DNA of 34,405 bases from Candidatus Wirthbacteria bacterium (lineage in GTDB: Bacteria; Patescibacteriota; CG2-30-54-11): the NCBI GenBank assembly GCA_903889905.1, contig CAISZI010000032.1, positions 1-34,405 on the forward strand. The letters run 5' to 3'. Positions within the stretch are counted from its first letter, which is position 1. Every line of letters begins with the position of its first letter. Position numbers and translations under genes: made by a program. A model generated the notes under the pieces. That model had not been told where the DNA came from, did not search any database, and worked only from the letters and a program-made list of their open reading frames with translations. Positions 36 through 34,084 of the stretch are shown here, in pieces.

Positions 36-2378
36 ATGGCACCAATTCCCGCGCAAGGTGACGGCATGGATTTCAATTCAGAAGAGGCAATGCATCATGC
101 CAAACCAGCGCATCGCACCACTTCGGCGGCGTTGCGTAGTGCGTTACCAAACTGGGATTTCCTGAAATCTCTCTCGGGCAGTATCAATGGGCTGATTGTC
201 TGGATCATCGCCATCATGGTTTTCCTCACGCCTTTTGTTTTCGCGAGCTGGACTGTTGAGTACATGCGTTACAATAAAATGATGTTCGTTGCCTTTGGCA
301 CCGGCCTGGTCGTGATTCTGTGGGCCATCAAAATTATCCTCGACAAAGAACTTCGGCTGAAAAAAACTGTGCTCGACCTTCCTATCCTGGTCATGGTCGG
401 AGCCGGTGCTTTGGCCTTGCTGCTTTCCAAAGTGACCAGCCAGAGTTTGTGGGGCGACTTCCCCAACTTTGAAGACAGCTTTTTGTACTTTGTTGCCATT
501 ATCATTAACTTCTACGCGTTGATCAATGCCCTGCGTGGTGGTAAAGACTGGCTGCTGATGGTGGTCATGGTAATTGCCTCGAGCGCACTGCTCGCGGTGG
601 TGACCTTGCTCCAGTATTTCAAGATTTATCTGTTACCGTTTTCATCACTTTCGCATAGCCAGCTGTTTAGCCCGTTTGGAACCGTGTTTCAGGTCGGGTT
701 TTACCTCGCCGTGCTCGTACCCTTCGCCAGTGGTTTCCTGATTGGCAGCCTGAGCAACAAACGCTGGGTGCTTTCCGCCCTGGTTGCGGTCTTCATGGTG
801 GCCAGCTTTTTTGTCTTTGGTGTGATTGATTACTGGCCCGTGTGGCTAATTGCTTCCTTTGGCGTCCTGGTTTCGACCTTGATCAGCATTCCGGTGCTGG
901 GTAAAGCGAGTCGCAAATGGGCATTTTTGCCACTGATTTTGTTTGTGCTGACATTGTTTGTCTTCAAAGTTAACACCATTCGCGCCAAAATCGGTGTGAC
1001 TACCAATCCCGACAAACCTGTGGTGCTTGATGTTTCCGAATCCATGTCGATTGCTCAGCAGAGTCTGAACAAGTACGCATTTACCGGTGTTGGTCAGGGG
1101 AACTACGGTTACGCCTTCAAGCTTTTGCGTCCCGTGGAATTCAACCAACTCGCCGACTGGATTTTGAACTACAATCGCCCCTTCAACCAGTTCTTTATGG
1201 TGCTCACAACCATGGGGTTGGTGGGTGTGGCGGCGCTGTTGTTTTTCCTGGGAAAATTACTTTTGCTGGTGGTCAAGGCCGTGCTTAGCTACTCGTTGCA
1301 AAAGGATGCTGATCCTGCTGTGATTGGCCTGTTTGTCAGCCTCGCCAGCTATGTGCTGGTGCTGGTGCTGAGTTGGGAAACCATGCCACTGCAGCTCTTG
1401 TTCTGGATATTGCTGGTGCTGGCTGTTTATATCGGATTTGAACCTGATGTTTCTGGCATCACTGGTGACAAGGTTTTTGCTGTCAACATGGCAACTGATG
1501 GTGGCACCAAACAGCGTGATTTGCTTTCGATTGCCGTTGCCATCGGTTCCATCGCATTGGTCGCTTTTGTCTGCTTCAAATTGACGACGGTTTATCTGGT
1601 GGATATCAATTTGCGTCGCGCCATTGACTCTGGCAACGCCGGTGATACGAATGGTTCTCTCGCTTCCCAGAACAAGGTCGTCACCGACAATAATGCCACT
1701 GATTATGATTATCGTGGTGTTGCAATTCTGCTCCATAACCAGGGGATTGCCGCCGCGATTAGTCAGGACAATCAAGCGCAGCAACAGACCGATATCGAAC
1801 GCAAACGTGCCTACTTTACCGAGGCCGTCCGTTTTGCCCGTATCGCAGCCCAAAAGGGTGGGCTCGATTCAGAAAACTGGGAAGTGTTACTTGGCATCTA
1901 TTCAACCTTGTCTGACTATGGCATCACCAAAATCGACAATGTGCCGCTCAGCAATTTGATGGCTGATATCAATACACAGCTTTCCAACCTGACACCCACC
2001 GAAGTTGCCTGGCGCATCCGCATGGCTAACTACTATGTCAATCTGGGTGACACCGAAACCGGTGCTGCCGATACAGCGCTGACGCTTTTGCAGGCTGCCA
2101 ATTACCTCAAGAGCAACCTCGTCGACATCCATTACCTGGCCGCCAAAGACTTTGGTATCAAGAAAGACTACACCAATGCCCTGGTTGAAGCCAATACCGC
2201 ATTACGTTCACTCGCTGCGGACAATGCCTGGACGACGGAACTCAATAAGTTGATTACAGATTGGAAGGCGGCTCAAGCCAAGGCTGGTACCGCGACGACT
2301 CCAGCTACGACTACGCCACCCACCACGCCTGCCGCGTCAACGACGACCACCACGCCTGGATTGACCACGACGAAGTAG
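36..2378 (+). CDS. O-antigen ligase (Wzy_C)-like membrane protein with C-terminal TPR region
   Basis: Polytopic inner-membrane protein of 780 residues. I count about 13 hydrophobic segments between residues ~50 and ~525. The loop after segment 9 carries a GVGQGNY motif followed by a Tyr/Asn-rich stretch and a 'GLVG' helix, as in the Wzy_C/WaaL ligase family. Residues ~555-740 are alpha-helical and TPR-like (Ala/Tyr/Leu spacing), and the last ~35 residues are a Thr/Pro-rich low-complexity tail. Family knowledge: such proteins transfer lipid-linked glycans to acceptors at the outer face of the membrane. In CPR genomes the ligase-plus-TPR form is common, and a role in surface protein or pilin glycosylation is inferred. 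The start is supported by GGAGG at 27-31, five bases before ATG. The upstream context is cut off by the window edge. The exact acceptor cannot be told from sequence. Confidence 0.8.
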   Translation: MAPIPAQGDGMDFNSEEAMHHAKPAHRTTSAALRSALPNWDFLKSLSGSINGLIVWIIAIMVFLTPFVFASWTVEYMRYNKMMFVAFGTGLVVILWAIKIILDKELRLKKTVLDLPILVMVGAGALALLLSKVTSQSLWGDFPNFEDSFLYFVAIIINFYALINALRGGKDWLLMVVMVIASSALLAVVTLLQYFKIYLLPFSSLSHSQLFSPFGTVFQVGFYLAVLVPFASGFLIGSLSNKRWVLSALVAVFMVASFFVFGVIDYWPVWLIASFGVLVSTLISIPVLGKASRKWAFLPLILFVLTLFVFKVNTIRAKIGVTTNPDKPVVLDVSESMSIAQQSLNKYAFTGVGQGNYGYAFKLLRPVEFNQLADWILNYNRPFNQFFMVLTTMGLVGVAALLFFLGKLLLLVVKAVLSYSLQKDADPAVIGLFVSLASYVLVLVLSWETMPLQLLFWILLVLAVYIGFEPDVSGITGDKVFAVNMATDGGTKQRDLLSIAVAIGSIALVAFVCFKLTTVYLVDINLRRAIDSGNAGDTNGSLASQNKVVTDNNATDYDYRGVAILLHNQGIAAAISQDNQAQQQTDIERKRAYFTEAVRFARIAAQKGGLDSENWEVLLGIYSTLSDYGITKIDNVPLSNLMADINTQLSNLTPTEVAWRIRMANYYVNLGDTETGAADTALTLLQAANYLKSNLVDIHYLAAKDFGIKKDYTNALVEANTALRSLAADNAWTTELNKLITDWKAAQAKAGTATTPATTTPPTTPAASTTTTTPGLTTTK

Positions 2379-2420
2379 CTTGAATAACTGTTGAGCATGA
2401 GACGCCATTTGTGCGATATT

Positions 2421-2452
2421 AAGAGCTGAATGAATTTCATTCAGCTCTTTTT
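2421..2452 (+). terminator. Rho-independent terminator after the ligase gene
   Basis: A perfect 13-bp stem (2421-2433 with 2437-2449) closes a 3-nt loop and runs into a short T tract (2448-2452). It lies 43 bp after the ligase stop and ends just before the Shine-Dalgarno sequence of the hexokinase gene. It should separate the two transcripts, or act as an attenuator if a promoter lies in 2380-2420. Confidence 0.8.
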
Positions 2453-2467
2453 ATACAAAGGAAGCCC

Positions 2468-3964
2468 ATGGGTTTATCCTCGGTGCTGAAGCAGGTGATC
2501 AAGGATGGGGTACTGCTCAATCTGGAGGTGCCGGAGCACTGCTCACGCGTGCGGGCGGAAGTGCAACGCTTTGCACAGGAGATGCGCACGAGCCGAGGTT
2601 CTCCGATCGATATTCCGCCGATGATTTATTCGGCGGTGCCGCTCGCTCCATCCACGCAGCGATCCTGTGCGAGCAATTTCAGCGTACTGATTTTGTCCAT
2701 TGGTGGCACCAACACCAATTTGCGCTGGATCACATCCCACGCTGGCGAGTTGCATTTGGAGGCACTTCCACTTGGACTGACGCCAGCCGACGCTCACTTT
2801 AACTCGCCCTGCAATGACAACCTGTCGCATGGTGCGCTGGAATTTGTGGAACCGATCGCCCAAAAAGTCCTGCGCTGGTTGACACAAATTCCACTGGCTC
2901 AATTTCCCCAGCATCTGGTGATCAGCTGGGGGTTTCCACAGCTCAATTATGCTCTGCCTAAAGCCAGCGGCATCACCGGGGCGATAGCTTGTGGCATGTC
3001 CAAAGGCCAGTCAGGTGTTGCAATTACCGACGCCCATATCGAAGAACTTTTTCGACAATTGCTTGCCGACCTTGCGAGTGGAAACGCCTGCATGGCTTTG
3101 CGTAAACCGTTGCAGCAACTGCGTATTTCCGTTCAGAACGACACGATCATGGCTGTACACCGCTATCTGGAAGCCGAAAATCGACAGAAGTTTCACAAAA
3201 TTGGTTTGATGATTTTGGGTACTGGCGTCAATGTTACGACTGCCGAACCGTTTGTGCTCGATCAGCGGGGTCGCGTACTTGAAGACAGTGAAGGGTTTGC
3301 CATGCATGCGGTACAACCGGAAGCGCGCAAACAGTCGGTCCAGGATTTCTGGATCTGTTACGAAGCAGGGCGTTTACAGGTCAGTGAAACCAGGGCCAAA
3401 TGTGACCGGCTGCACCCGGTGCGGGACAAGGGTATTGTCGCCGATATCGAAGAATTGGGACTGGGGGGCATTGGTTTTCCTCGTATTTTTGCCAACTTGA
3501 TTCGGGATTATATGCCGGCGGGAGAGCGCGTGCTGGAATTTGTACGGGAGGAAGTCGGGGAACTCAACGCACATCGGGTCTGTGACATCGCCAAAGCTAA
3601 GTTGATGCTGCAAAGCGACAGAATCACACCGGTACTTGCCGCCGAATTGCAGGAGTTGGCGCAGGTGACACTGTATCGTGGCATACTGCGAGCGGCGGAA
3701 GTGCTCTCTGCGGTCAGTTTGTATAGTGGACTTGGCCTGCACCAGGGAGAGCAAGCAGATGCCCTGGCGCTGGAGGGGAGCTTGTGGACAATCCCGGATT
3801 TCCAGACCGAGGTAGTACGGTTGTGGAACAAATTGCTGCAGAACGAGCTGGGTGAAGCCGGTCTGGAAAAATTAAATCTGGTGCTGCTCCATGAGGACGA
3901 TTATAATGCGAGCCTGATGGGACCAGCGTATTTTATCCGTCAATTTGATGCTGCGCGCCGTTGA
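2468..3964 (+). CDS. Eukaryotic-type hexokinase family protein
   Basis: Predicted ATP-dependent sugar kinase of the hexokinase family (Pfam Hexokinase_1/Hexokinase_2), phosphorylating a hexose such as glucose at C6. The order of motifs matches the family. A PMIYSAVP stretch (~51-58) corresponds to the 'MLPT' region. The phosphate loop LSIGGTNTN is at 76-84. WGFPQ (~154-158) corresponds to SFP. QNDT at 223-226 holds the expected catalytic base Asp225, and the second phosphate motif LGTGVN is at 250-255. A final LEGSLW matches the DGS-containing adenosine motif. At 498 residues it is near the size of a single eukaryotic hexokinase unit (~450-500) and larger than bacterial ROK glucokinases (~300). 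The Ser of SFP is Gly here. AAAGGAAG at 2457-2464 supports the ATG. The stop overlaps the next gene by 4 nt, so the two are probably co-transcribed. Confidence 0.78.
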   Translation: MGLSSVLKQVIKDGVLLNLEVPEHCSRVRAEVQRFAQEMRTSRGSPIDIPPMIYSAVPLAPSTQRSCASNFSVLILSIGGTNTNLRWITSHAGELHLEALPLGLTPADAHFNSPCNDNLSHGALEFVEPIAQKVLRWLTQIPLAQFPQHLVISWGFPQLNYALPKASGITGAIACGMSKGQSGVAITDAHIEELFRQLLADLASGNACMALRKPLQQLRISVQNDTIMAVHRYLEAENRQKFHKIGLMILGTGVNVTTAEPFVLDQRGRVLEDSEGFAMHAVQPEARKQSVQDFWICYEAGRLQVSETRAKCDRLHPVRDKGIVADIEELGLGGIGFPRIFANLIRDYMPAGERVLEFVREEVGELNAHRVCDIAKAKLMLQSDRITPVLAAELQELAQVTLYRGILRAAEVLSAVSLYSGLGLHQGEQADALALEGSLWTIPDFQTEVVRLWNKLLQNELGEAGLEKLNLVLLHEDDYNASLMGPAYFIRQFDAARR

Positions 3965-5466
3965 ATCCACACACCCGCTTTTTGACCCTGACGGCATTCA
4001 TCAGTGGCATGTCGATCATGGCCATTGAAATGTCTGCGTCCCGGCTGATGGCTCCGTATTTTGGCGCATCCGTTTTTGTTTGGACCAACCTGCTGGGCGT
4101 GATCATGATGGCACTTGCGTTAGGCTACTGGTGGGGCGGGAAGCTGGCGGACAAGCATCCAACGCCGACATTTCTCTATCGCCTGTTGCTGTTGGCAGCA
4201 CTGTTATTGCTTGGCTTACCGCTGGTGGCACCGTGGTTCATGAATTTCATGAGCAACGGTGTCCAGCAAGGTCAATATTCACTCGTGATCATGTCATTTG
4301 TGTCGAGTCTGGTCATCTTTGGAGTGCCATTTACAGTGCTGGGCATGGTAAGTCCGACGATCATCCGGCTGCTTTCGTCGGCTGTGAATGTTGCGGGCCA
4401 CACGGCGGGCAATGTTTACGCAGCATCCACGGTGGGCAGTATCCTGGGAACTTTTTTGCCAACGCTGGTGCTGGTGCCGTGGATTGGGACCAAACGCACG
4501 ATCATTTTGTTTGCCGTGATTTTGTTAATCCTCAGCTTGATTGGGTTGGGACGCAAAAAATGGTGGGTGGCACTGGGGCTGTTTGGCGTGATTTTTTGGC
4601 TCACTCCACCACAATACTTTGCCAGTGCCGACATTTTGTACCAAACCGAGACGCCGTATGCCTATGTCAAAGTGGTGAAGGATGATGCCGGTACCGTTTC
4701 ATTGCAGCAGGATGAGGGCTATGGCCTGCATTCGCTTTATCATCCCGATCAAGTCTGGACCGGCGGGTATTGGGACTACATGGCGCTGATGCCGTATCTG
4801 CAACCAGACAAGGTCAATCAGCGCGTGGCCGTGATCGGAGCGGCGGGTGGAACCGCTTATCGCATCCTGGCCAAGGAAGACGGCGAGGCTTTCAAGTTTA
4901 CGTTTACTGGTGCGGAGCTGGATCCGCAGGTTATCAAATTGTCGAAGCAGTACTTTGGGATGAATGAAATTCAACCGAATGTCGCCGCGCAGGACGGGCG
5001 AATTTGGATGAAGCAGACCGTTGGTGACTACGATATCATCTTTTTGGATGCTTACCACCAGATGTACATCCCACCGCAATTGTCGAGTCAGGAGTTTTTT
5101 GGCTTGGCTCGATCCAAGATGAGCGCAGGTGGCATATTTGTCATGAATATCAATTCACTGTTTGACGGGTCGGAAATATATCGCCGCATTGTGACGACGA
5201 TTCAGGCAGTTTGGCCCAAGGTTTGGGTACTCAAGGTGGGGAATGACAGTTACAACTTCTTGGTGCTGGCCACATCCAACACCGCTCTGGACTTTGGGCA
5301 AGCCATGGCGACGGTTCCAACCAAACTGCAGGATCTGGCCCGGAACGCCACCCAACAAACAACTCAGCCTCCACTTTTGAAGGCTGAGCTGATTACGGAC
5401 GACAAACCCCTTTCCGAAGTCCTGTTCGACAAGATGGTGGGGGAATGGCTGCTCAAGATTCTTTAG
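3961..5466 (+). CDS. Membrane-fused spermidine synthase-like protein
   Basis: Residues 1-~215 form about seven membrane helices with the motif EMSASRLMAPYFG near the N-terminus, typical of bacterial 'fused MFS/spermidine synthase' proteins. Residues ~225-501 form a Rossmann methyltransferase-like polyamine synthase domain. It has a glycine motif VIGAAGGTAYR (SAM/dcSAM site), the acidic residues GAELD, and FLDAYH followed by IPPQL, where the Asp is the family's catalytic residue. Soluble spermidine synthases usually have a second acidic residue after this Asp; here it is AYH, so the true reaction may not be spermidine synthesis. The start is TTG at 3961, overlapping the hexokinase TGA in a TTGA junction, which suggests translational coupling. 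An internal ATG (codon 17) is less likely because it would cut the first helix. Confidence 0.78.
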   Translation: MNPHTRFLTLTAFISGMSIMAIEMSASRLMAPYFGASVFVWTNLLGVIMMALALGYWWGGKLADKHPTPTFLYRLLLLAALLLLGLPLVAPWFMNFMSNGVQQGQYSLVIMSFVSSLVIFGVPFTVLGMVSPTIIRLLSSAVNVAGHTAGNVYAASTVGSILGTFLPTLVLVPWIGTKRTIILFAVILLILSLIGLGRKKWWVALGLFGVIFWLTPPQYFASADILYQTETPYAYVKVVKDDAGTVSLQQDEGYGLHSLYHPDQVWTGGYWDYMALMPYLQPDKVNQRVAVIGAAGGTAYRILAKEDGEAFKFTFTGAELDPQVIKLSKQYFGMNEIQPNVAAQDGRIWMKQTVGDYDIIFLDAYHQMYIPPQLSSQEFFGLARSKMSAGGIFVMNINSLFDGSEIYRRIVTTIQAVWPKVWVLKVGNDSYNFLVLATSNTALDFGQAMATVPTKLQDLARNATQQTTQPPLLKAELITDDKPLSEVLFDKMVGEWLLKIL

Positions 5467-25783: not shown

Positions 25784-26824
25784 ATGCCAAATGCGTTAAA
25801 ATTGGTGGGGGTTGAACAGGAATTTGTCGTTCGTCTGACTTTTCTGAACATTTCCTCACCCGTTGTCTGGGTGTTGTTGCTGTTGTTGTTGTCATTTGTG
25901 CTGGCCATGCTCTGGGCACCGTTACTGATCGGACCACTTCGGACAATCACCCGTAAAAAAATTGACCAAAAAGGCCGTCCGATTCTGTATTCGATGCACA
26001 ATGGCAAACAGGGAACGCCCTCCATGGGTGGGCTGCTGTTTGTCGTCAACACTCTGGTCTTGTGTTTGTTTTTTCTGACCAAGGCAGATTACTTCTGGCT
26101 TACGCTGCTGGGCATTGTGACAATTGGGCTGGTGGGAGTGACCGATGATTATCTGGTCACCTGGAGTACCCGTTTCACAGGACTGCGCGCCTGGCAGAAA
26201 TTCGGTCTGCAGGCAATCGTTGCCTTGATCCTGGCGGTTAATCTTTATCAGCGTTATGGCTACAGCCAATTGCAAATACCATTGGTGGGCATTCTCAGTC
26301 TGGGTGTGTGGATGGTGCCACTTTTGATTTTGATCATGCTGGCATCGATCAATGCCGTCAATCTGACCGATGGACTGGACGGCCTGGCTGCCGGTGTTTC
26401 GTTGTTTGCCTTTAGTGGGTATCTGGTGATTGCGCTGGTGCAGCAGCAGTTCCATGTCGCCACTCTGATCGCGGTGCTGATGGGTTCATTGCTGGCTTTT
26501 CTGTGGTTTAATATTTACCCGGCACGGTTTTTTATGGGGGATGTCGGGGCGCTGACGCTGGGGCTGTCGCTGGCTCTGATGGCCACGCTCACTGGTCAAT
26601 TGGCACTGCTGCCAATTTTTGGACTGGTTTTTGTGCTGGAAACGCTGTCGGTGATCTTGCAGGTTTTCTGGCGCAAGGTTTTTAAACGTAAATTGTTTAC
26701 CATTGCTCCCTATCATCATCACCTCGAACGTCTGGGCTGGCCAGAGACGAAAGTTTCGCAGCGGTTTTGGATGCTGGGGGCTGTCAGCATGATTTTGGGT
26801 TTGCTGCTATACTTTGCGCACTAG
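25784..26824 (+). CDS. mraY: Phospho-N-acetylmuramoyl-pentapeptide transferase MraY
   Basis: Integral-membrane enzyme transferring phospho-MurNAc-pentapeptide from UDP to undecaprenyl phosphate, giving lipid I. About ten hydrophobic segments. The active-site residues appear in order: GTPSMGG, VGVTDDYLV (Asp pair), NLTDGLDGLAAG and APYHHHLERLGWPE (the His loop). Length 346 is normal. No strong Shine-Dalgarno is seen before ATG 25784, and an ATG 20 bp upstream ends at once in TGA. It is the first committed membrane step of the peptidoglycan cluster that continues to murG. Confidence 0.96.
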   Translation: MPNALKLVGVEQEFVVRLTFLNISSPVVWVLLLLLLSFVLAMLWAPLLIGPLRTITRKKIDQKGRPILYSMHNGKQGTPSMGGLLFVVNTLVLCLFFLTKADYFWLTLLGIVTIGLVGVTDDYLVTWSTRFTGLRAWQKFGLQAIVALILAVNLYQRYGYSQLQIPLVGILSLGVWMVPLLILIMLASINAVNLTDGLDGLAAGVSLFAFSGYLVIALVQQQFHVATLIAVLMGSLLAFLWFNIYPARFFMGDVGALTLGLSLALMATLTGQLALLPIFGLVFVLETLSVILQVFWRKVFKRKLFTIAPYHHHLERLGWPETKVSQRFWMLGAVSMILGLLLYFAH

Positions 26825-26845
26825 TTATTGAGTAGAAAGCGTTTA

Positions 26846-27709
26846 ATGCTATCAGCTTTGGCGACAACCCAGTCCGTACTGCAGACGCTTCGCGCAGACT
26901 GGAAGACGCGTTTTGGCTTTGTCTATTTGAAGCTAAAGCCGCAGCTGTTGTCAGATGGTCGCATTGACTTGACCGGCCAGGTGCTGTTTGCCAACCAGAA
27001 GAAAAAAATACTCAGTGAACTGGCTAAATACAGTATTGACGTTGTCGATCACGTGGAAATTGCTATCGAACAGCTCAAGTGGACCTGGGTCAAAGCTGCG
27101 ACCGAGGTCGTGGCGTTGCGCGAGGGTTGCATTGCCACGAGCCGTTTGTGGTCCGAAGCCAGGGCGGGGGAATGGCTGAAACTGTATTTGAAGCACGCCA
27201 ACTTTGCGCTGGTGGAAAGTGACGACAAAACTTTTGGCTGGGTACAATGCTGCGACCTGGTCCGCGCTAAACCGGCGGAGGAACCTTGGACACGACCCTG
27301 GTTTGCCCTGTCCGAACACATTCCGCTGACCGCCAAAGCTTCACTGCAGCAAACCACTCGTCAATATCTGGAGACGCCGTACCTTTTGGGTGGCAAAACG
27401 ACGGTGGGTTGGGATTGTTCAGCCTTTGTCCAACAGGTGATGTGGGAAGTTTATGGCCATTTACTGCCGCGGCATTCGTGGGATCAGAAAAATTACGGGC
27501 AGGCCATCAGTGAAGCAGAAATTCGTCCTGGGGACCTGGTGTTTGCGCTTAGCCTCACCAAGCATACCAAGCATGTAGGGATTTATCTGGGGAACGAGGA
27601 TATCGTGCATGCCAGTCGCCGTGCCGGGAAGACAGTGATCTGGAAATTACCTTTGTTTGAAATGATTTATCAGGTCGTGGTGGTGCGCCGCCTCACAGAC
27701 CGCAATTAG
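26846..27709 (+). CDS. NlpC/P60 (C40) peptidase with SH3-like and BON-like N-terminal regions
   Basis: 287 residues. The C-terminal C40 domain has Cys191 in WDCSAFVQ, His243 in KHVGIYLG and His255 as the third polar residue; these enzymes cut gamma-D-Glu-diaminoacid bonds in wall peptides. The middle (~80-140) looks like a bacterial SH3 module, as in YkfC-type dipeptidyl peptidases. Residues ~25-75 (DGRIDLTGQV...) resemble a BON domain. No signal peptide or membrane helix is seen, so a cytoplasmic muropeptide-recycling role is favoured over wall remodelling. An upstream TTG at 26828 is an alternative start; I chose the ATG, without strong Shine-Dalgarno evidence. It lies between mraY and murD, with its stop next to the murD ribosome-binding site. 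Confidence 0.8.
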   Translation: MLSALATTQSVLQTLRADWKTRFGFVYLKLKPQLLSDGRIDLTGQVLFANQKKKILSELAKYSIDVVDHVEIAIEQLKWTWVKAATEVVALREGCIATSRLWSEARAGEWLKLYLKHANFALVESDDKTFGWVQCCDLVRAKPAEEPWTRPWFALSEHIPLTAKASLQQTTRQYLETPYLLGGKTTVGWDCSAFVQQVMWEVYGHLLPRHSWDQKNYGQAISEAEIRPGDLVFALSLTKHTKHVGIYLGNEDIVHASRRAGKTVIWKLPLFEMIYQVVVVRRLTDRN

Positions 27710-27719
27710 GAGTTTGGGC

Positions 27720-29138
27720 ATGGCTTTTGCTTTGACGGAATGGTCGCAGCAGGAAATACATATTGTGGGATTGTCGGGCATTGAAGGCTTCACGGTCGCC
27801 AAATTTTTGTTTGACCGCGGCGTGCGAAATCTGGTGCTGCACGATTTTGAAAATCTGGCTGACTTCAAACGTACTTTTTTGTTATTACACCTTTATCTGT
27901 CTCGTCCCGAGCGTAAACGGGCATTGGACGACTTGCTGGAGTGGCCGGTGAAATTTTGCTTTGGTACAGAATACTTGGCGGGGATTGCCGCTGCGGACCG
28001 GATTTTTTTGGGTCAGAACTGGTTTGCCTATCCGGCCAACCAGGCCTTGGAACCAATCAAGGCGAGTGCTCCAGCGAAATTCTATCAGATGCTTGATCTG
28101 TATTTACAGACTTTCCCCGGCAAAGTGATTGGGGTAACTGGCACCAATGGCAAATCCACGACCGTGGACCTGATCGCCAAAATGCTGCATGCGGCTGGCA
28201 AAACTGTCTGGTATGGCGGCAATGAACGCAGCAAAGAGCAATCTCTGCTGCGCCTTGAACAAGCGCAAAAAGATGATTATCTGGTCCTGGAAGTCAGCAA
28301 TCGTCATCTCAAATTCGGCCTGAAGCAGTCGCCGCAGATCGCGGTGATTACCAACGTGACGCCGAATCATATCCCGGACCACGGTTCATTCGAGGCTTAT
28401 GCGGCTGCCAAACAGCGCATCCTGGAACATCAGGATGCTGATGATTATCTGGTTTTGAATGCCGATGACTCCGTCAGTTCAGCCTGGGCAACGCAAGCCA
28501 AAGCCTCGATCCATTGGTTTGCGACCGCCACTGACGTGCATGGCGGGCATGTGAGAAATGGTCAACTCAGCGTGGGCAACGAAGCGATTTTGCCACTCGG
28601 TTGTTTGTGTAACTGTTCTGTTCAGTTTATTGCCAACGCCGCCGCAGCAGTGACAGTGGCCCATCTCTGCGGTATCGCGTCGCCGGTCATTGCCACGGTG
28701 TTACGCGAGTATCAGATGTTGCCAGGCCGTTGTGAGCAGGTGGCGGTCAAGCATGGCGTTAAATATATTTATGACATCAAAAGTACCGTGCCGCAGGCGA
28801 CAGTGGCGGCCTTGCAGAGTTTTACGGAACCGGTGGTGCTGATTGCCGGTGGTGAGGACAAAGGCGTGGATTATGCGTTGATGGCCGGGGAAATCCAGGC
28901 CAAAGTGAAATGGCTGATCCTGCTTCCAGGCACGGCCACAGCCAAACTGCTTGTTTGTTTGAGGGCGCTGCAGTGGGATCGATTGGAAATGGTCGAAGGT
29001 CTACCCTTGGCTTTTATTCAGGCGGCTGCCAAGGCAGAAGCGGCCGATGTGGTGCTGTTGTCGCCAGGCGCGGCCGGATTTTATTCGGCGTTCATCGAAG
29101 GCAAAACAGGGTTTCGCAAACTTGTTGATGCCATTTGA
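27720..29138 (+). CDS. murD: UDP-N-acetylmuramoyl-L-alanine--D-glutamate ligase MurD (divergent)
   Basis: Mur ligase adding D-Glu to UDP-MurNAc-L-Ala in the cytoplasm. 472 residues. The N-terminal Rossmann-like part contains IVGLSGIEGFTVAKFL, the ATP loop is GVTGTNGKSTT (138-148), then come TNVTPNHIPDHGSF and a C-terminal domain with VVLIAGGEDKGVDYALM. The last motif is diagnostic for MurD among Mur ligases. Two usual motifs are altered: TPDH is TPNH, and the D-Glu-binding NDSKATNP is YDIKSTVP. The acceptor amino acid might therefore differ. AGGAG at 27708-27712 is 7 nt before ATG 27720; a TTG at 27714 is less likely. Confidence 0.9.
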   Translation: MAFALTEWSQQEIHIVGLSGIEGFTVAKFLFDRGVRNLVLHDFENLADFKRTFLLLHLYLSRPERKRALDDLLEWPVKFCFGTEYLAGIAAADRIFLGQNWFAYPANQALEPIKASAPAKFYQMLDLYLQTFPGKVIGVTGTNGKSTTVDLIAKMLHAAGKTVWYGGNERSKEQSLLRLEQAQKDDYLVLEVSNRHLKFGLKQSPQIAVITNVTPNHIPDHGSFEAYAAAKQRILEHQDADDYLVLNADDSVSSAWATQAKASIHWFATATDVHGGHVRNGQLSVGNEAILPLGCLCNCSVQFIANAAAAVTVAHLCGIASPVIATVLREYQMLPGRCEQVAVKHGVKYIYDIKSTVPQATVAALQSFTEPVVLIAGGEDKGVDYALMAGEIQAKVKWLILLPGTATAKLLVCLRALQWDRLEMVEGLPLAFIQAAAKAEAADVVLLSPGAAGFYSAFIEGKTGFRKLVDAI

Positions 29139-29147
29139 TCCCATGCG

Positions 29148-29327
29148 TTATTTTTCTTCTTCGACCGTTTCGTAGCTGATGGCAATGGCGGTTAGGCGGA
29201 TTTCAGCTCCACAGGAGTCGCAGATGATGATATCATCCACCTGAGGTTGTCTGGCGATCAGGACAGGCGCATGGCAGTCAGGACAAAGCAGTGTCAGGTT
29301 TTGGATTTGGTCAGAAGTTTTTGGCAT
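29148..29327 (-). CDS. LysW-like zinc-ribbon small protein
   Basis: 59 residues with Cys15, Cys18, Cys36 and Cys39 forming two CxxC knuckles (CPDCHAP and CDSCGAE), and an acidic tail VEEEK. Size, cysteine spacing and the CGAE segment match LysW, the amino-group carrier protein on which lysine or arginine precursors are built. True LysW ends EDWGE and attaches its substrate to the terminal Glu; here the last residue is Lys, so carrier function is uncertain. The start at 29327 is preferred because AAGGAAAA lies upstream; a longer frame to 29384 adds only a hydrophobic stretch. It is convergent with murD (9 bp apart) and divergent from the PLP enzyme. Confidence 0.65.
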   Translation of the reverse strand: MPKTSDQIQNLTLLCPDCHAPVLIARQPQVDDIIICDSCGAEIRLTAIAISYETVEEEK

Positions 29328-29376
29328 AATTTTTCCTTGCTTCAGAAGTAAAAACAACAATGAGGTTACCAATAAA

Positions 29377-30444
29377 GTGAGCACAGCTCAAGTCTCAACC
29401 GTCGCTCAAGCCCAAGCTCAGCACCTTGGCATCTGGCAAGATGCTGCCTCGCTCTTGCCGAATGTTGGGCGAGAGTACCAGCTCAGCCTTGGCGAAGGCC
29501 AGACGCGCGCTGTTCCGTTGCAGCTTGGGGCGCAGACGATTTGGCTCAAACACGAAGATGAGAACCCGCATGGCAGCCACAAAGACCGTGCTTTTGCCTA
29601 TCGTCTGTCTTTGGCGAAGCAGGCGGGAACTCAAGCCGTTGTCCTGTCATCGTCGGGCAATGCGGCGATCAGTTGTGCGGCTTATGCCCGGCAAGCGTCA
29701 ATCAAGTGTGTGCTGTTTGTCTCACCAGAGACGGAACCCGGTAAGCTGCAGGCCTTGGAAGACTTTACCCAAGCCAGGGTTTTGGTGTCGACACGTGCCA
29801 TGAGAATGGCCAATTATGTGGCAGCCAGGTACCTGATTCCCAATTTGCGGCCGTCGCTGGACGAGTTCGCCACCATTGGTTACAAAACCATTGCTTTTGA
29901 ATTACGGCGGCAATTGGAGCATGTTGATCATGTGTTTACCTTTGTCACGTCGGCCAGTTCTCTGGTTGGCATGGCCATGGGTTTTCAAGAATTATTAAAG
30001 GCCAAAAAGATCATGAAACTGCCAGCTTTGCATGTGGTTCAGTCGACTGGCAAAGATGCGTTGGTTAAAGCAAGCAGTGGTAGTCTTTTAGCAACTGATG
30101 CTGGCGCGGTGCGGAATCTTGGCGTCGCACATTCGGCCAGGGAAAAGGAAGCTCTCCGTTTACTGAGATCAACCGGCGGGTCGGGTTGGAGTGTTGGCAG
30201 GGAGCAGATGGAAACCGCCAACCAGATTTTGTTGTCAAAAGGTATCGCGTCATCGTGGGAAGGGCAGTGTACCGTGGCGGCGATCAAGCAGGCGTTGCAT
30301 TCTGGCCAGGTGCAGGGCAAGGTGGTTGGGTTATTAACCGGCAAAAACTATCCGTTTATACCAGATTTTCAAAGTCATTTCCCGCTGGTCAATACTTTTG
30401 TCGATGTTGATGCTCAGGTTGAGTCTTATCTGTATGGAGTTTAA
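29377..30444 (+). CDS. Threonine synthase-fold (type II) PLP enzyme
   Basis: 355 residues of the tryptophan-synthase-beta/threonine-synthase family. The PLP-binding Lys is Lys69 in NPHGSHKDRAF, and the substrate/cofactor loop SSSGNAA is at 91-97. The family does beta- or gamma-replacement or elimination on Ser, phosphohomoserine and similar substrates. The glycine loop that normally holds the PLP phosphate (GxGxxG-like) reads TSASSLVG, which is unusual. No thrB, hom or other threonine genes are close. The GTG start has only a distant GAGG. The stop precedes the ATP-grasp gene by 3 bp, so the pair is co-expressed. It may make a special amino acid for the wall or for the adjacent carrier; that is inference. 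Confidence 0.72.
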   Translation: MSTAQVSTVAQAQAQHLGIWQDAASLLPNVGREYQLSLGEGQTRAVPLQLGAQTIWLKHEDENPHGSHKDRAFAYRLSLAKQAGTQAVVLSSSGNAAISCAAYARQASIKCVLFVSPETEPGKLQALEDFTQARVLVSTRAMRMANYVAARYLIPNLRPSLDEFATIGYKTIAFELRRQLEHVDHVFTFVTSASSLVGMAMGFQELLKAKKIMKLPALHVVQSTGKDALVKASSGSLLATDAGAVRNLGVAHSAREKEALRLLRSTGGSGWSVGREQMETANQILLSKGIASSWEGQCTVAAIKQALHSGQVQGKVVGLLTGKNYPFIPDFQSHFPLVNTFVDVDAQVESYLYGV

Positions 30445-30447
30445 GCC

Positions 30448-31812
30448 TTGGTCACTGAAAGCGAACTGATTGATCTAGCCAAAAAGTATCTGGACGTTCC
30501 TATTTTTTATGTGGTACCGGATGCCAGTTGGGCGTTGGGACTGGAGTGGATATTACCGCAGTACCATATTATCTGCGTTGATGACACGGATGTGGTAGAT
30601 TATCTGAAACGTGATGGTTTTTCGGTATTCTGCGCTGAGACCGATACTGACGCCACGCTGGTCACGCGTTCGGCGAGCGGGTTGCTTAAATTGGCGGCTG
30701 TGGAGCGTTTTATCCAAGACAAAGCGGCTGGCCGTGAGCCGCATCTGTTGATTTTTAAACCCTCCCCGGCCATTGCCAAAATCTGTACCGAACGTGGGTA
30801 CCGCTTGCTGGCCAATTCCGCCGAGCTTAACCGCTCGTACGAAGACAAACTGCGATTTGGTGAGACTCTGGACATGCTGGGTATCAGGCAGCCAACCCAT
30901 CGTATCCTGCCAGTGGCGGAACTCGATTATGACAATCTGTCGGCAATGTGGTCCAAGCAATTTGTGTTGCAAAAAGCGCGTGGGTTTGCCGGTTCCAGCA
31001 GCTGGCTGATCCGTTCGGCCGCTGACCTGGCTGCTTTCAGGCAACAGGAGCCCCAGGGCCGAGTAAAATTATCCAAATGGATCACCGGTATACCCGTCAC
31101 GCTAAATGCCTGTGTGCTGGATACTGGCGTGCTGCAGGGGCGGTATTTCTACCAGATCACGGGTCACCGTGAATTCAACCGGTATGATCTTGGCACCTGT
31201 GGCAATGACTATGCTTATCCGTTTAATTTTGGACCAGAGATTGAATCCCAGATTGCTCATGTGACGCAGACAATTGGGAAACAGATGCGAACCGCTGGTT
31301 ACCGTGGCATTTTTGGCCTGGATTTGATCGTTTCTGGCGATGCCCGTGTTTATGTCATCGAAAACAATGCCCGTCTGGTGGCTTCGATTCCGGTTTTTAC
31401 CAAACTGCAGCTGCAAGCCCGTCAATTACCTTTACTGCTGCTGCATTTGCTGCAATTTGCTGGTGCGTCGTTTGCGCCAGAGTTGAAGAAGTTGCAGGGC
31501 GAGTTGTCGCAGATTTTTGAGGGCAGTCAGTTGATATTGCGCAATACAACGGACGAGCCTTTGCAGCTACATCAGCCATGGCATACCGGCGTCTATGATT
31601 TGGGGTTGCAGTGGCAGCAGTCTGGCTGGCACATTGGTATGCTGGGAGCTGAGCAATTATTGCTTAACATCGTCAAACAAAATCGTTGGGTGAATCCCAA
31701 TATGGAATATGCTAATATGCAGTTCGCGACCGGTATCGTGCAGAAAAACGGCGACCTTAAACCTGCACTGTTGCCGGCAGTCAAGGCTATTTGTTACAAG
31801 CCGTCAGTCTAA
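30448..31812 (+). CDS. ATP-grasp ligase of unknown substrate
   Basis: 454 residues. The central part is an ATP-grasp domain. The Lys-containing strand and glycine loop FVLQKARGFAGSSSWLI (~170-186) is followed by a second strand with KWITGIPV. The metal site GIFGLDLIVSG...YVIENNAR (~285-312) contains the Glu and Asn that bind Mg2+. Such enzymes activate a carboxylate as acyl-phosphate and join it to an amine. An N-terminal Rossmann-like pre-domain (~1-120) and a C-terminal ~110-residue domain flank it. The TTG start has GGAG at 30436-30439. Its place between murD and ftsW makes a peptidoglycan peptide or cross-bridge role (compare the D-Asp ligase Aslfm) one option. Ligation to the LysW-like protein (compare LysX) is another. 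Confidence 0.75.
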   Translation: MVTESELIDLAKKYLDVPIFYVVPDASWALGLEWILPQYHIICVDDTDVVDYLKRDGFSVFCAETDTDATLVTRSASGLLKLAAVERFIQDKAAGREPHLLIFKPSPAIAKICTERGYRLLANSAELNRSYEDKLRFGETLDMLGIRQPTHRILPVAELDYDNLSAMWSKQFVLQKARGFAGSSSWLIRSAADLAAFRQQEPQGRVKLSKWITGIPVTLNACVLDTGVLQGRYFYQITGHREFNRYDLGTCGNDYAYPFNFGPEIESQIAHVTQTIGKQMRTAGYRGIFGLDLIVSGDARVYVIENNARLVASIPVFTKLQLQARQLPLLLLHLLQFAGASFAPELKKLQGELSQIFEGSQLILRNTTDEPLQLHQPWHTGVYDLGLQWQQSGWHIGMLGAEQLLLNIVKQNRWVNPNMEYANMQFATGIVQKNGDLKPALLPAVKAICYKPSV

Positions 31813-31842
31813 ATTCAACCCAACGACGACGAAGGAGTGGGT

Positions 31843-33051
31843 GTGCCAAAGCGCAGTGTCAAGACCAAACCCAAAAAAATGGATCACAGTGTATTGCTGA
31901 TGTGGCTGGTTTTGGTAGTATTTGGTTTGATCATGGTGGCGTCCGCCAGTTCGATCAAGGCACACACGGAATTCGTCAATGCAGCAGGGCAATCGAACGA
32001 TTACTGGTACCTGATCCAGCAATTTAAATGGGTGGTTTTTTCGCTGGTGGCTGTTTTCTTTTTTTCGCGACTGGATTATCGGCGTCTTCGCTATTTTGCT
32101 TTTCCGGCGCTGCTGATCGTGATCGGGTTACTGGCGGCGGTGTTTTTGCCTATTATTGGTGGGCGCACGATCCTGGGCGCCAAGCGTTGGCTGGATTTTG
32201 GGTTTATCGGCATGCAACCATCCGAACTGACCAAAATTTCACTGGTTGTTTACCTCGCTACCTGGCTGGAACGCAAAGGCAAGGAAGTGAAGGATTTTAA
32301 ATACGGGTTTATTCCGTTTGCTGCGATTTTGGGATTGATCATTTTTTTGCTGTTCATGCAAAAGGACCTGGGCACGACGATCATCATTTGTATCATCGCT
32401 GTCACCATTTTTTTTGTCTCGGGCGCCAACGTCTTTCAACTGTTTTTTGGTGGTGTAATTGTAATCGGCCTGGTTGTGGGGTTAATTTCAGTGTCCACTT
32501 TCCGTCAGGCACGGATCAAAGCCTGGCTGAATCCGGGGTCAGACACCAAAACGACCGCCTATCATGTGACGCAATCGAGAATAACCATTGGGTCGGGTGG
32601 GATTTGGGGGGTGGGTTATGGCCACAGCCTGCAAAAGTATAACTATATACCGCACGCTCCGACGGATTCGATCTTTGCCATTATTGCCGAAGAACTGGGG
32701 CTGGTGGGTTCAGTAGCACTGGTGGCTTTATACCTGTTTTTTCTGTATCGCATTTTTATTGTGGCCAAGTCGGCGCCTGACCCTTTTGGACGGCTGCTGT
32801 CGGTTGGGATCGGGGTCTGGATCGGGATCCAGGCATTTATCAACATTGGCGGATTGATGCGTATTATTCCGCTTACCGGTGTGCCTCTGCCGTTTATCAG
32901 CTATGGCGGGTCGTCGTTGCTGATGTCATCGATCGGGGTGGGCATGGTGCTTTCGGTATCGCGTGAAATTGAAATAAGGACCAAGCATGAAAATAGTCAT
33001 GACGGGCGGGGGAACGGGCGGTCACGTCGTCCCTCTGCTGGCGCTGCTTGA
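31843..33051 (+). CDS. ftsW: SEDS peptidoglycan polymerase FtsW/RodA/SpoVE
   Basis: Polytopic glycosyltransferase that polymerises lipid II during division or elongation. 402 residues. After a basic N-terminal tail (~1-15) come about ten helices, with the family signatures GAKRWLDFGFIGMQPSELTK and, near the end, PLPFISYGGSSLL. The SEDS catalytic Asp is expected in the large loop between helices 7 and 8. AAGGAG (31832-31837) fits the GTG at 31843 better than the GTG at 31837. The last 65 bp overlap murG, giving an Arg/Gly-rich cytoplasmic end. FtsW rather than RodA is inferred from the murG neighbour. Confidence 0.9.
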   Translation: MPKRSVKTKPKKMDHSVLLMWLVLVVFGLIMVASASSIKAHTEFVNAAGQSNDYWYLIQQFKWVVFSLVAVFFFSRLDYRRLRYFAFPALLIVIGLLAAVFLPIIGGRTILGAKRWLDFGFIGMQPSELTKISLVVYLATWLERKGKEVKDFKYGFIPFAAILGLIIFLLFMQKDLGTTIIICIIAVTIFFVSGANVFQLFFGGVIVIGLVVGLISVSTFRQARIKAWLNPGSDTKTTAYHVTQSRITIGSGGIWGVGYGHSLQKYNYIPHAPTDSIFAIIAEELGLVGSVALVALYLFFLYRIFIVAKSAPDPFGRLLSVGIGVWIGIQAFINIGGLMRIIPLTGVPLPFISYGGSSLLMSSIGVGMVLSVSREIEIRTKHENSHDGRGNGRSRRPSAGAA

Positions 33052-34084
33052 GTATGCCCAGGGGCAATCGGATTTGCCACCACTTCAGTTGTACTATCTG
33101 GCAACCGGTCGTGGCATGGAAGCCGAGCTTGCCGCACAGGTGTCGTTTACCCGCATTCACAGCGGTAAGCTGCGGCGTTATTTCAGTTGGAGCAATTTGC
33201 TTTCGCCCTTGGCGATTGTGCTTGGCATGGTTGAATCCTGGTCGGCTTTGCGCCGAATTCAGCCACAGGTGGTGTTCAGCACAGGGGGTTACGTTTCTGT
33301 CCCAGTTGTCTGCGCCGCCAAAGTGCTTGGCATTCCGGTGATACTGCATGAGCAAACGACACAGTTCGGGCTGGCCAACCGCCTCATGGCACCGCTTGCG
33401 ACCAAAGTGCTGGTGTCGTGGCAATCGACACTGGAACAGTACCCGCATCTACAGGCCAAGTGGGTTGGCAATCCAGTGCGTTTTATTTCCTCAACACAGA
33501 CCATGGCCCAAGCCAAACACACGCTGGGCTTGCGGGTTGACTTACCCCTTGTCTTTGTCGGTGGCGGTGCACAGGGGAGTCACGTCATCAATCAGACGGT
33601 ACTGGAGAAACTGCCACAGTGGCTGGAGCAGACACAAATGGTTATTTCGACTGGCCCAAATGCAGATTTCACGGCGTTGCAAGCAGCGGCTCATAAACTC
33701 CCTGCTTCACTTCAGACACGCATCCTGGTGGAAGAATTTGTGGGCCAACAACTGGCGACTGTTTATGCTGCTGCGGATCTGTTTGTCGGGCGGTCTGGAG
33801 CGGGCACGGTAAGTGAACTGATCGTCTTGCAAAAACCATCGCTCCTGGTACCATTACTCAAAAGTGCCGGTGGAGAACAGCAGCACAACGCGCAATTGCT
33901 CGTCGTGGCGGGAGGGGCGGTAGTGATTCCTCAGCATGATTTGAATCCGACGCATTTGTTGGCAACCGTTTCCACCCTTCTCCGCGATATGTCAAAGCTC
34001 CAGCGTATGTCGACGCAACTCAAAGTGCTCCAAAAACCGGATGCCAGCGCAGCCATCTGGGCTGAAATAGTGGTTTTTGCCTGA
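32987..34084 (+). CDS. murG: UDP-GlcNAc--lipid I GlcNAc transferase MurG
   Basis: Peripheral membrane GT-B glycosyltransferase turning lipid I to lipid II, the substrate of the upstream ftsW product. 365 residues. The N-terminal loop is TGGGTGGHVVP (6-16), with a second glycine-rich loop GGGAQGSHVIN in the C-terminal domain. The donor site is GRSGAGTVSELI, with the Glu that contacts ribose, followed by EQQHNAQLL. AAGGA (32976-32980) sits 6 nt before the ATG, inside ftsW. It is the last recognisable gene of the wall cluster; murC, ddl and ftsQ, which often follow, are not seen in the remaining 320 bp. Confidence 0.95.
   Translation: MKIVMTGGGTGGHVVPLLALLEYAQGQSDLPPLQLYYLATGRGMEAELAAQVSFTRIHSGKLRRYFSWSNLLSPLAIVLGMVESWSALRRIQPQVVFSTGGYVSVPVVCAAKVLGIPVILHEQTTQFGLANRLMAPLATKVLVSWQSTLEQYPHLQAKWVGNPVRFISSTQTMAQAKHTLGLRVDLPLVFVGGGAQGSHVINQTVLEKLPQWLEQTQMVISTGPNADFTALQAAAHKLPASLQTRILVEEFVGQQLATVYAAADLFVGRSGAGTVSELIVLQKPSLLVPLLKSAGGEQQHNAQLLVVAGGAVVIPQHDLNPTHLLATVSTLLRDMSKLQRMSTQLKVLQKPDASAAIWAEIVVFA

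Follow-up and report, generated by a model that had tools for sequence, protein, structure and literature searches.

A conserved gene module tied to peptidoglycan synthesis was found in a Candidatus Wirthbacteria bacterium (assembly GCA_903889905.1), within a window, i.e., the whole stretch of DNA analyzed (34,405 bp of contig CAISZI010000032.1), that belongs to a genome of 1.99 Mb and 97% completeness. The core of the module is a trio of genes located between murD and ftsW and encoding a small LysW-like zinc ribbon, a fold-type II pyridoxal phosphate (PLP) enzyme and an ATP-grasp enzyme; the coordinates, strands, order and 3-bp gap given for this trio in the initial annotation of the window were all verified. 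We give a probability of about 40% to the reading that, in a subset of the Patescibacteria, the module makes or installs an amino-acid part of the peptidoglycan precursor by means of the LysW-like protein as a covalent carrier. A narrower version is put forward tentatively: the carrier would work in reverse polarity, its terminal Glu changed to Lys. It would bind amino acids through the carboxylate, so that the amine stays available to the PLP enzyme, and deliver a non-standard or carrier-made residue of the stem peptide in Patescibacteria, where MurD has often been lost. The evidence for the broader reading includes the linkage to wall genes in 14 families, the co-occurrence of the LysW-like gene, its invariant C-terminal Lys and its homology to LysW, to which we add a fusion of a MurC-like ligase to a cysteine amidase domain, the presence of a separate canonical LysW in a sister genome, the concordance of the gene trees, the structural match of the amidase to glutathionylspermidine amidase and the weak similarity of some ATP-grasp members to MfnD and PylC.

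Conservation and linkage to wall genes

The relatives compared were 380 genomes, all of the same phylum as the window, taken as Patescibacteria/candidate phyla radiation. A single-sequence scan of the genome contigs gave no match, a search with a 3-row alignment retrieved only two relatives, and an alignment of 22 rows was too divergent to derive patterns. Profile searches for the ATP-grasp and PLP enzymes showed both genes sharing one region in 30 of the 380 genomes, distributed in 14 families; this count includes G002, whose contig ends within the PLP gene, and G021, whose contig ends within the ATP-grasp gene. Judged from sequence comparison, the recurrence of the same genes at 24-46% identity across 14 families exceeds chance. 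The neighbors of the module were mraY, present in 23 of the 29 regions fetched, and MurC-like or MurD ligases; ftsW and murG also adjoin it in the window's own family and in family f30. The expectation that the trio would stay together beside wall genes in related genomes thus held in 14 families; the homologues are linked to wall genes, not scattered, and the PLP enzyme is not a genuine threonine synthase (see below). The link of the module to wall synthesis is strong, and we regard the finding as real, conserved and tied to that process.

Of 34 PLP-bearing genomes, 32 had the Lys-ended LysW-like gene, whereas none of 46 controls did; two weak matches in the controls fell within long unrelated frames. 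The two PLP-bearing exceptions were G124, in which the gene is missing, and G002, with its truncated contig. Its usual position is directly adjoining the PLP gene and divergent from it. Distances among the PLP, ATP-grasp and MraY trees agreed (Spearman 0.62-0.75, Mantel p 0.0005), as would be expected from long co-inheritance.

The LysW-like zinc ribbon

The window protein scored 25.5 bits with Pfam Zn_ribbon_LysW (cut-off 27), and all 19 aligned members of the family matched this model at E<=1e-3 (best 1.2e-13). Among PDB sequences, the profile of these 19 members (A7) matched LysW 3wwl best (E 8.6e-11), so that the description of a divergent LysW-like zinc ribbon was borne out. With TIGR01206, the curated LysW equivalog, the window protein stayed below the cut-off (19.4 of 53.2 bits). 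The LysW-like domains of the members were 24-41% identical to the window copy, and the only invariant columns in the 19 aligned sequences were the four Cys, one Gly and the C-terminal Lys. This Lys closes all 32 members, in tails such as EEEK, DEGK, EDEK, VEK, VQK, RGK and VDK; an EDWGE (or EDWGQ) tail with terminal Glu was found in none of the 32. True LysW binds the amino acid through the gamma-carboxyl of its last residue, the final Glu of EDWGE (PMC10433800).

The sister genome G002, of the same family, encodes a separate canonical LysW with the tail EDWGQ; its neighbors are LysX-, LysJ-, LysY- and LysZ-like genes, recognized by eye from their N-termini and not by a model. Beside the wall-linked, Lys-ended kind, a second kind of LysW with a different end group therefore coexists in this lineage. 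This locus (L213 3423-8648, G002:C63) seems to be a canonical LysW cluster for lysine in a Wirthbacteria genome, its LysW having EDWGQ at the end and not EDWGE.

The ATP-grasp enzyme

The window enzyme matched Pfam ATP-grasp_3 (26.1 bits, cut-off 23.2) and gave an AlphaFold model with a pLDDT of 93. Among its relatives E305 and N307 are invariant, and the metal and nucleotide residues are kept. PRK06524, which carries no known reaction, was the top NCBIfam model for all 22 cassette enzymes, and GSWGR, the LysX motif that recognizes EDWGE, occurred in none of them. For the window protein, neither Pfam nor NCBIfam gave a Ddl match. Some members showed weak similarity to LdmS, MfnD, BesA and PylC, all of which couple an amino acid to an amine; of these, MfnD and PylC are amine-acylating ATP-grasp enzymes.

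The initial annotation had left two options, a residue or cross-bridge for the wall peptide and synthesis on an amino-group carrier protein as in LysW/LysX. The second had to be given up in its plain form: the EDWGE tail, the GSWGR motif and LysZ/Y/J/K are all absent, and PRK06524, instead of LysX or Ddl, is the nearest named ATP-grasp model. With these three defining features lacking, the module falls outside the LysW/LysX system, though its working may be a variant of the same principle. The data favor a mixture of both options, i.e., a carrier protein that serves to make wall precursors.

Another possibility is that the ATP-grasp enzyme adds a PLP-made non-standard or branch residue directly to the UDP-N-acetylmuramic acid (UDP-MurNAc) peptide or to lipid II, in the manner of the D-Asp ligase Aslfm, with the zinc ribbon as a mere subunit or specificity factor. 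Amino-acid-joining ATP-grasp enzymes are common, the locus lies beside mraY, ftsW and murG, and MurD is missing in 24 of the 30 module genomes, so the stem peptide may be altered. Such a ligase, however, would leave the invariant C-terminal Lys and the LysW descent unexplained, and the NCBIfam scan returned PRK06524 with no Aslfm-type model among the matches (a direct comparison with Aslfm was not made). We consider this explanation unlikely.

The ATP-grasp enzyme was also examined as a replacement of Ddl and rejected as such: Ddl is absent in 22/30 module genomes and 183/350 others (Fisher p 0.035), which is not specific. A separate ATP-grasp clade of ~490 aa, related to the module enzyme (L027, L028, L029, L032), was discarded as a module member; it is an unlinked paralogue whose neighborhoods have no PLP or LysW-like gene. 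Another locus, L172 (G000:C53:1-7000, positions 240-5390), encodes an 824-aa protein with two ATP-grasp halves, one L-amino-acid-ligase-like and one Ddl-like; its neighbors are a PRK06524-like ATP-grasp enzyme of 454 aa and a decarboxylase resembling LysA. Similar frames of 803-829 aa are found in G001, G002 and G272, and the locus may represent a second unusual system for amino acids or dipeptides.

The PLP enzyme

The window enzyme has a clear PALP domain (Pfam, 3.8e-43). The Schiff-base Lys and the SSSGN loop are kept, with K69, S92, S93 and G94 invariant in 22 relatives. It scored below every NCBIfam cut-off, its best model being PRK08329 (122 of 358 bits), and reached 60 of 167 bits with TIGR00260, both far short of the curated ThrC thresholds. 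Two genuine ThrC genes over cut-off lie elsewhere in the same genome (G000:C40 and C53), which also encodes TrpB and a CysK/CBS-like enzyme. The idea that the PLP enzyme is the threonine synthase of this genome was consequently rejected, and its distinctness from ThrC was confirmed.

These results also bear on a housekeeping origin, i.e., a diverged lysine, arginine or threonine route that lies beside wall genes by accident. The LysW homology and the threonine-synthase fold would fit it, but the two ThrC of this genome, the lack of LysZ/Y/J/K around the module and a wall linkage conserved over 14 families make it very improbable.

Cysteine amidase and other partners

Most module regions contain a cysteine amidase-like gene (u256/u262) adjoining the ATP-grasp, PLP, MurC-like or mraY gene. 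Cys94 and His178 were invariant in 17 members, 14 of which matched NLPC_P60 weakly (best 1.2e-5). A Foldseek search with the u256 model had E. coli glutathionylspermidine amidase as its best PDB match (E 2e-3, probability 0.99). In the window, residues 105/130-265 of the NlpC/P60 protein encoded between mraY and murD match the SH3b-NlpC peptidases 2evr and 2hbw, and an NlpC-like gene recurs by the module in relatives. In one family a MurC-like ligase is fused to an NlpC/P60-like cysteine amidase domain (L026 12386-14473), which places this domain in the cytosol.

Many module regions also carry a small gene resembling arginyl/leucyl-tRNA-protein transferases. The PLP and ATP-grasp enzymes had initially been described as a complete minimal unit; this does not hold, since the neighborhood also includes the cysteine amidase and, in many cases, a MurC-like ligase and the aminoacyl-tRNA transferase. 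The transferase-like gene L034 11980-12630 and its homologues are situated within the mraY cluster in several families.

Mur ligases and amino-acid racemases

MurD was present in 6/30 module genomes as compared with 268/350 others, i.e., it was missing in 82 of the latter; the difference has a p of 8e-10 by genome, although the genomes are related, and by family 9 of the 14 module families lack MurD. Ddl, MurI and the D-amino-acid-transaminase fold are often missing in module genomes, although their absence is not specific to them. A D-Glu-making role was considered, with MurI and the transaminase fold mostly absent there, but MurI and Aminotran_4 (Dat-type) were both absent likewise in 9 of 18 MurD-bearing control genomes, so that the pattern speaks neither for nor against such a role.

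Salvage or recycling would be another role for these genes: a cytosolic NlpC/P60 enzyme would trim muropeptides after their import, and the amino acids so freed would be reworked by the PLP and ATP-grasp enzymes. The likeness of the window NlpC to 2evr and 2hbw, which we take to be cytosolic recycling endopeptidases, agrees with it, as do the scarcity of D-Glu and D-Ala racemases and the notion that the lineage lives on hosts. A further point is that the linked MurC-like ligase gives a score with Mpl, although always below its MurC score. Recycling, however, requires neither a LysW-type carrier nor a PLP synthase, and the racemase absence is as unspecific as the above controls indicate, so that we hold salvage to be quite improbable.

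In module genomes a DegT-type aminotransferase (or a protein with similar length and start) and an alpha/beta hydrolase recur as flanking genes of a MurF-like ligase, at L154 350-4283 (G000), L157, L158, L171 and L161; family f30 adds a FemAB-like gene.

A proposed carrier with a terminal lysine

In the proposed working, the LysW-like protein would be a small covalent carrier in which a C-terminal Lys replaces the C-terminal Glu of true LysW. The ATP-grasp enzyme would activate the carboxylate of an amino acid and couple it to this Lys, preferably to its epsilon amine, leaving the alpha-amine of the amino acid free. The PLP enzyme would then work on the free amine by racemization or side-chain exchange, a cysteine amidase of NlpC/P60 or CHAP type would hydrolyze or transfer the product off the carrier, and Mur ligases would attach it to UDP-MurNAc. 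A carrier holding the amino acid by its carboxylate on a Lys side chain is favored because the PLP enzyme needs a free alpha-amine; a Glu-ended carrier would not provide one. There are precedents for the individual reactions: glutathionylspermidine synthetase/amidase for ATP-grasp loading of a carboxylate on a polyamine followed by unloading by a cysteine amidase, and PylC, which acylates the epsilon amine of lysine. Gene content, linkage, co-occurrence, catalytic residues and the terminal Lys were observed directly, whereas covalent carriage, loading direction, order of steps and product are inferred.

Several observations weigh against this scheme. The terminal Lys could be a recognition element instead of an attachment site. 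G201, G304 and G005 have the PLP/LysW-like pair with no ATP-grasp gene adjoining it (an NlpC-like gene is there instead in the first two), so that the pair is the tightest unit. In the model, the ATP-grasp fold is generic, with PDB matches to biotin carboxylase and glycinamide ribonucleotide synthetase at a TM score of about 0.6, and also to PurK. The Foldseek comparison of the u256 amidase gave no match with E below 1e-3, i.e., it is weak. Finally, in the genome of the window MurC, MurD and MurE score over their cut-offs, with a MurF-like ligase below its own, and the module is therefore not simply a MurD replacement.

The terminal Lys could alternatively be extended, as in pearlin synthesis: the ATP-grasp enzyme would activate its alpha-carboxylate and add a PLP-made amino acid, and the cysteine peptidase would supply the Mur ligases by cutting off this residue or a Lys-X dipeptide. 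In favor, the last residue does not vary among members, and the tail E-E-K or E-G-K may be similar to the Glu-Lys segment cleaved by NlpC/P60 enzymes. Pathways with peptide aminoacyl-tRNA ligases (PEARLs) do lengthen the C-terminus of a carrier and then cut the product off (PMC9303977). These pathways, however, use aminoacyl-tRNA and lanthipeptide-dehydratase-like enzymes, absent here, and the amine would be consumed, so the PLP enzyme could act only before loading. This type of loading seems unlikely to us.

Comparison with known systems

Known LysW-type carriers serve the synthesis of lysine, arginine and a small number of natural products. The LysW/ArgW and LysX/ArgX systems (alpha-aminoadipate lysine, arginine and the vazabitide/DADH variants) share with the module a C4 zinc ribbon, an acidic tail with a conserved last residue and an ATP-grasp partner. 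They end in Glu (EDWGE) whereas the module carrier ends in Lys, and LysX/ArgX have the GSWGR motif whereas the module enzyme is of another branch and lacks it. Unlike them, the module is located in a peptidoglycan cluster with a PLP enzyme of lyase/synthase type and a cysteine amidase, and LysZ, LysY, LysJ and LysK were not found among its annotated neighbors.

Pearlins (TglA/TmoA with PEARL ligases) also use a small encoded carrier whose C-terminus may hold a modified amino acid, with proteolytic release, but the module has no PEARL, its trio shows no evident tRNA-dependent loading, and its carrier is a LysW-type zinc ribbon. The E. coli glutathionylspermidine synthetase/amidase resembles it in that an ATP-grasp-type enzyme ligates a carboxylate to an alkyl amine and a CHAP-type cysteine amidase reverses this; it differs in its small-molecule polyamine acceptor, its single bifunctional protein and its ATP-grasp subfamily. 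Aslfm and other cross-bridge ligases are ATP-grasp enzymes in a wall context, but they have no carrier protein, and the NCBIfam matches of the module enzyme showed no specific similarity to them. ThrC and other fold-type II PLP enzymes have the same fold, Schiff-base Lys and SxGN loop; the module enzyme is set apart from ThrC by its score, the separate ThrC genes and its partner genes.

In the literature searched, which left out preprints and most subscription journals, we found no description of a LysW-like protein in a wall cluster or ending in Lys. The joint occurrence of the three genes within the wall cluster suggests a carrier-protein route to a peptidoglycan building block in many Patescibacteria that has not been described. 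If real, it would offer a testable handle on the wall chemistry of these bacteria and on how stem peptides are built in lineages that lack MurD and in many cases Ddl or MurI too, as well as a new carrier chemistry for protein-tethered biosynthesis.

Organization of the window

Table 1 Module genes and their context in the window
Feature	Position	Strand	Remarks
mraY (context)	25784..26824	+	TIGR00445, 226 bits (cut-off 192)
NlpC/P60 cysteine peptidase with SH3-like part, probable partner	26828..27709	+	NLPC_P60 1.2e-22; no obvious signal peptide
murD (context)	27714..29138	+	TIGR01087, 235.6 bits (cut-off 211.95)
LysW-like C4 zinc ribbon	29148..29327	-	59 aa; CPDC...CDSCGAEI; C-terminus VEEEK; divergent to PLP gene
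49-bp intergenic stretch separating the divergent LysW-like and PLP genes	29328..29376		holds both ribosome-binding sites
Fold-type II PLP enzyme, threonine-synthase-like	29377..30444	+	Schiff-base Lys69 in GSHKDR; SSSGN loop
ATP-grasp carboxylate-amine ligase-like enzyme, PRK06524 branch	30448..31812	+	E305/N307 metal site retained
ftsW (context)	31837..33051	+	TIGR02614, 351.5 bits (cut-off 337.5); 24 bp after ATP-grasp gene
murG (context)	32987..34084	+	TIGR01133, 255.2 bits (cut-off 250.25)

The LysW-like open reading frame (ORF) was listed with a GTG start at 29384; the ATG at 29327, from which the protein begins with MPKTS, is favored because AAGGA lies upstream of it. The PLP gene starts with the GTG at 29377, preceded by GAGG, and the ATP-grasp gene with the TTG at 30448, 3 bp past the PLP stop. 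A promoter scan of the divergent region (29328..29376) gave nothing convincing. At the left end of the window, two large ORFs (36-2378 and 2468-3964) had no Pfam match, and they are followed by a gene (3961-5466) for a protein with a spermidine-synthase-like domain.

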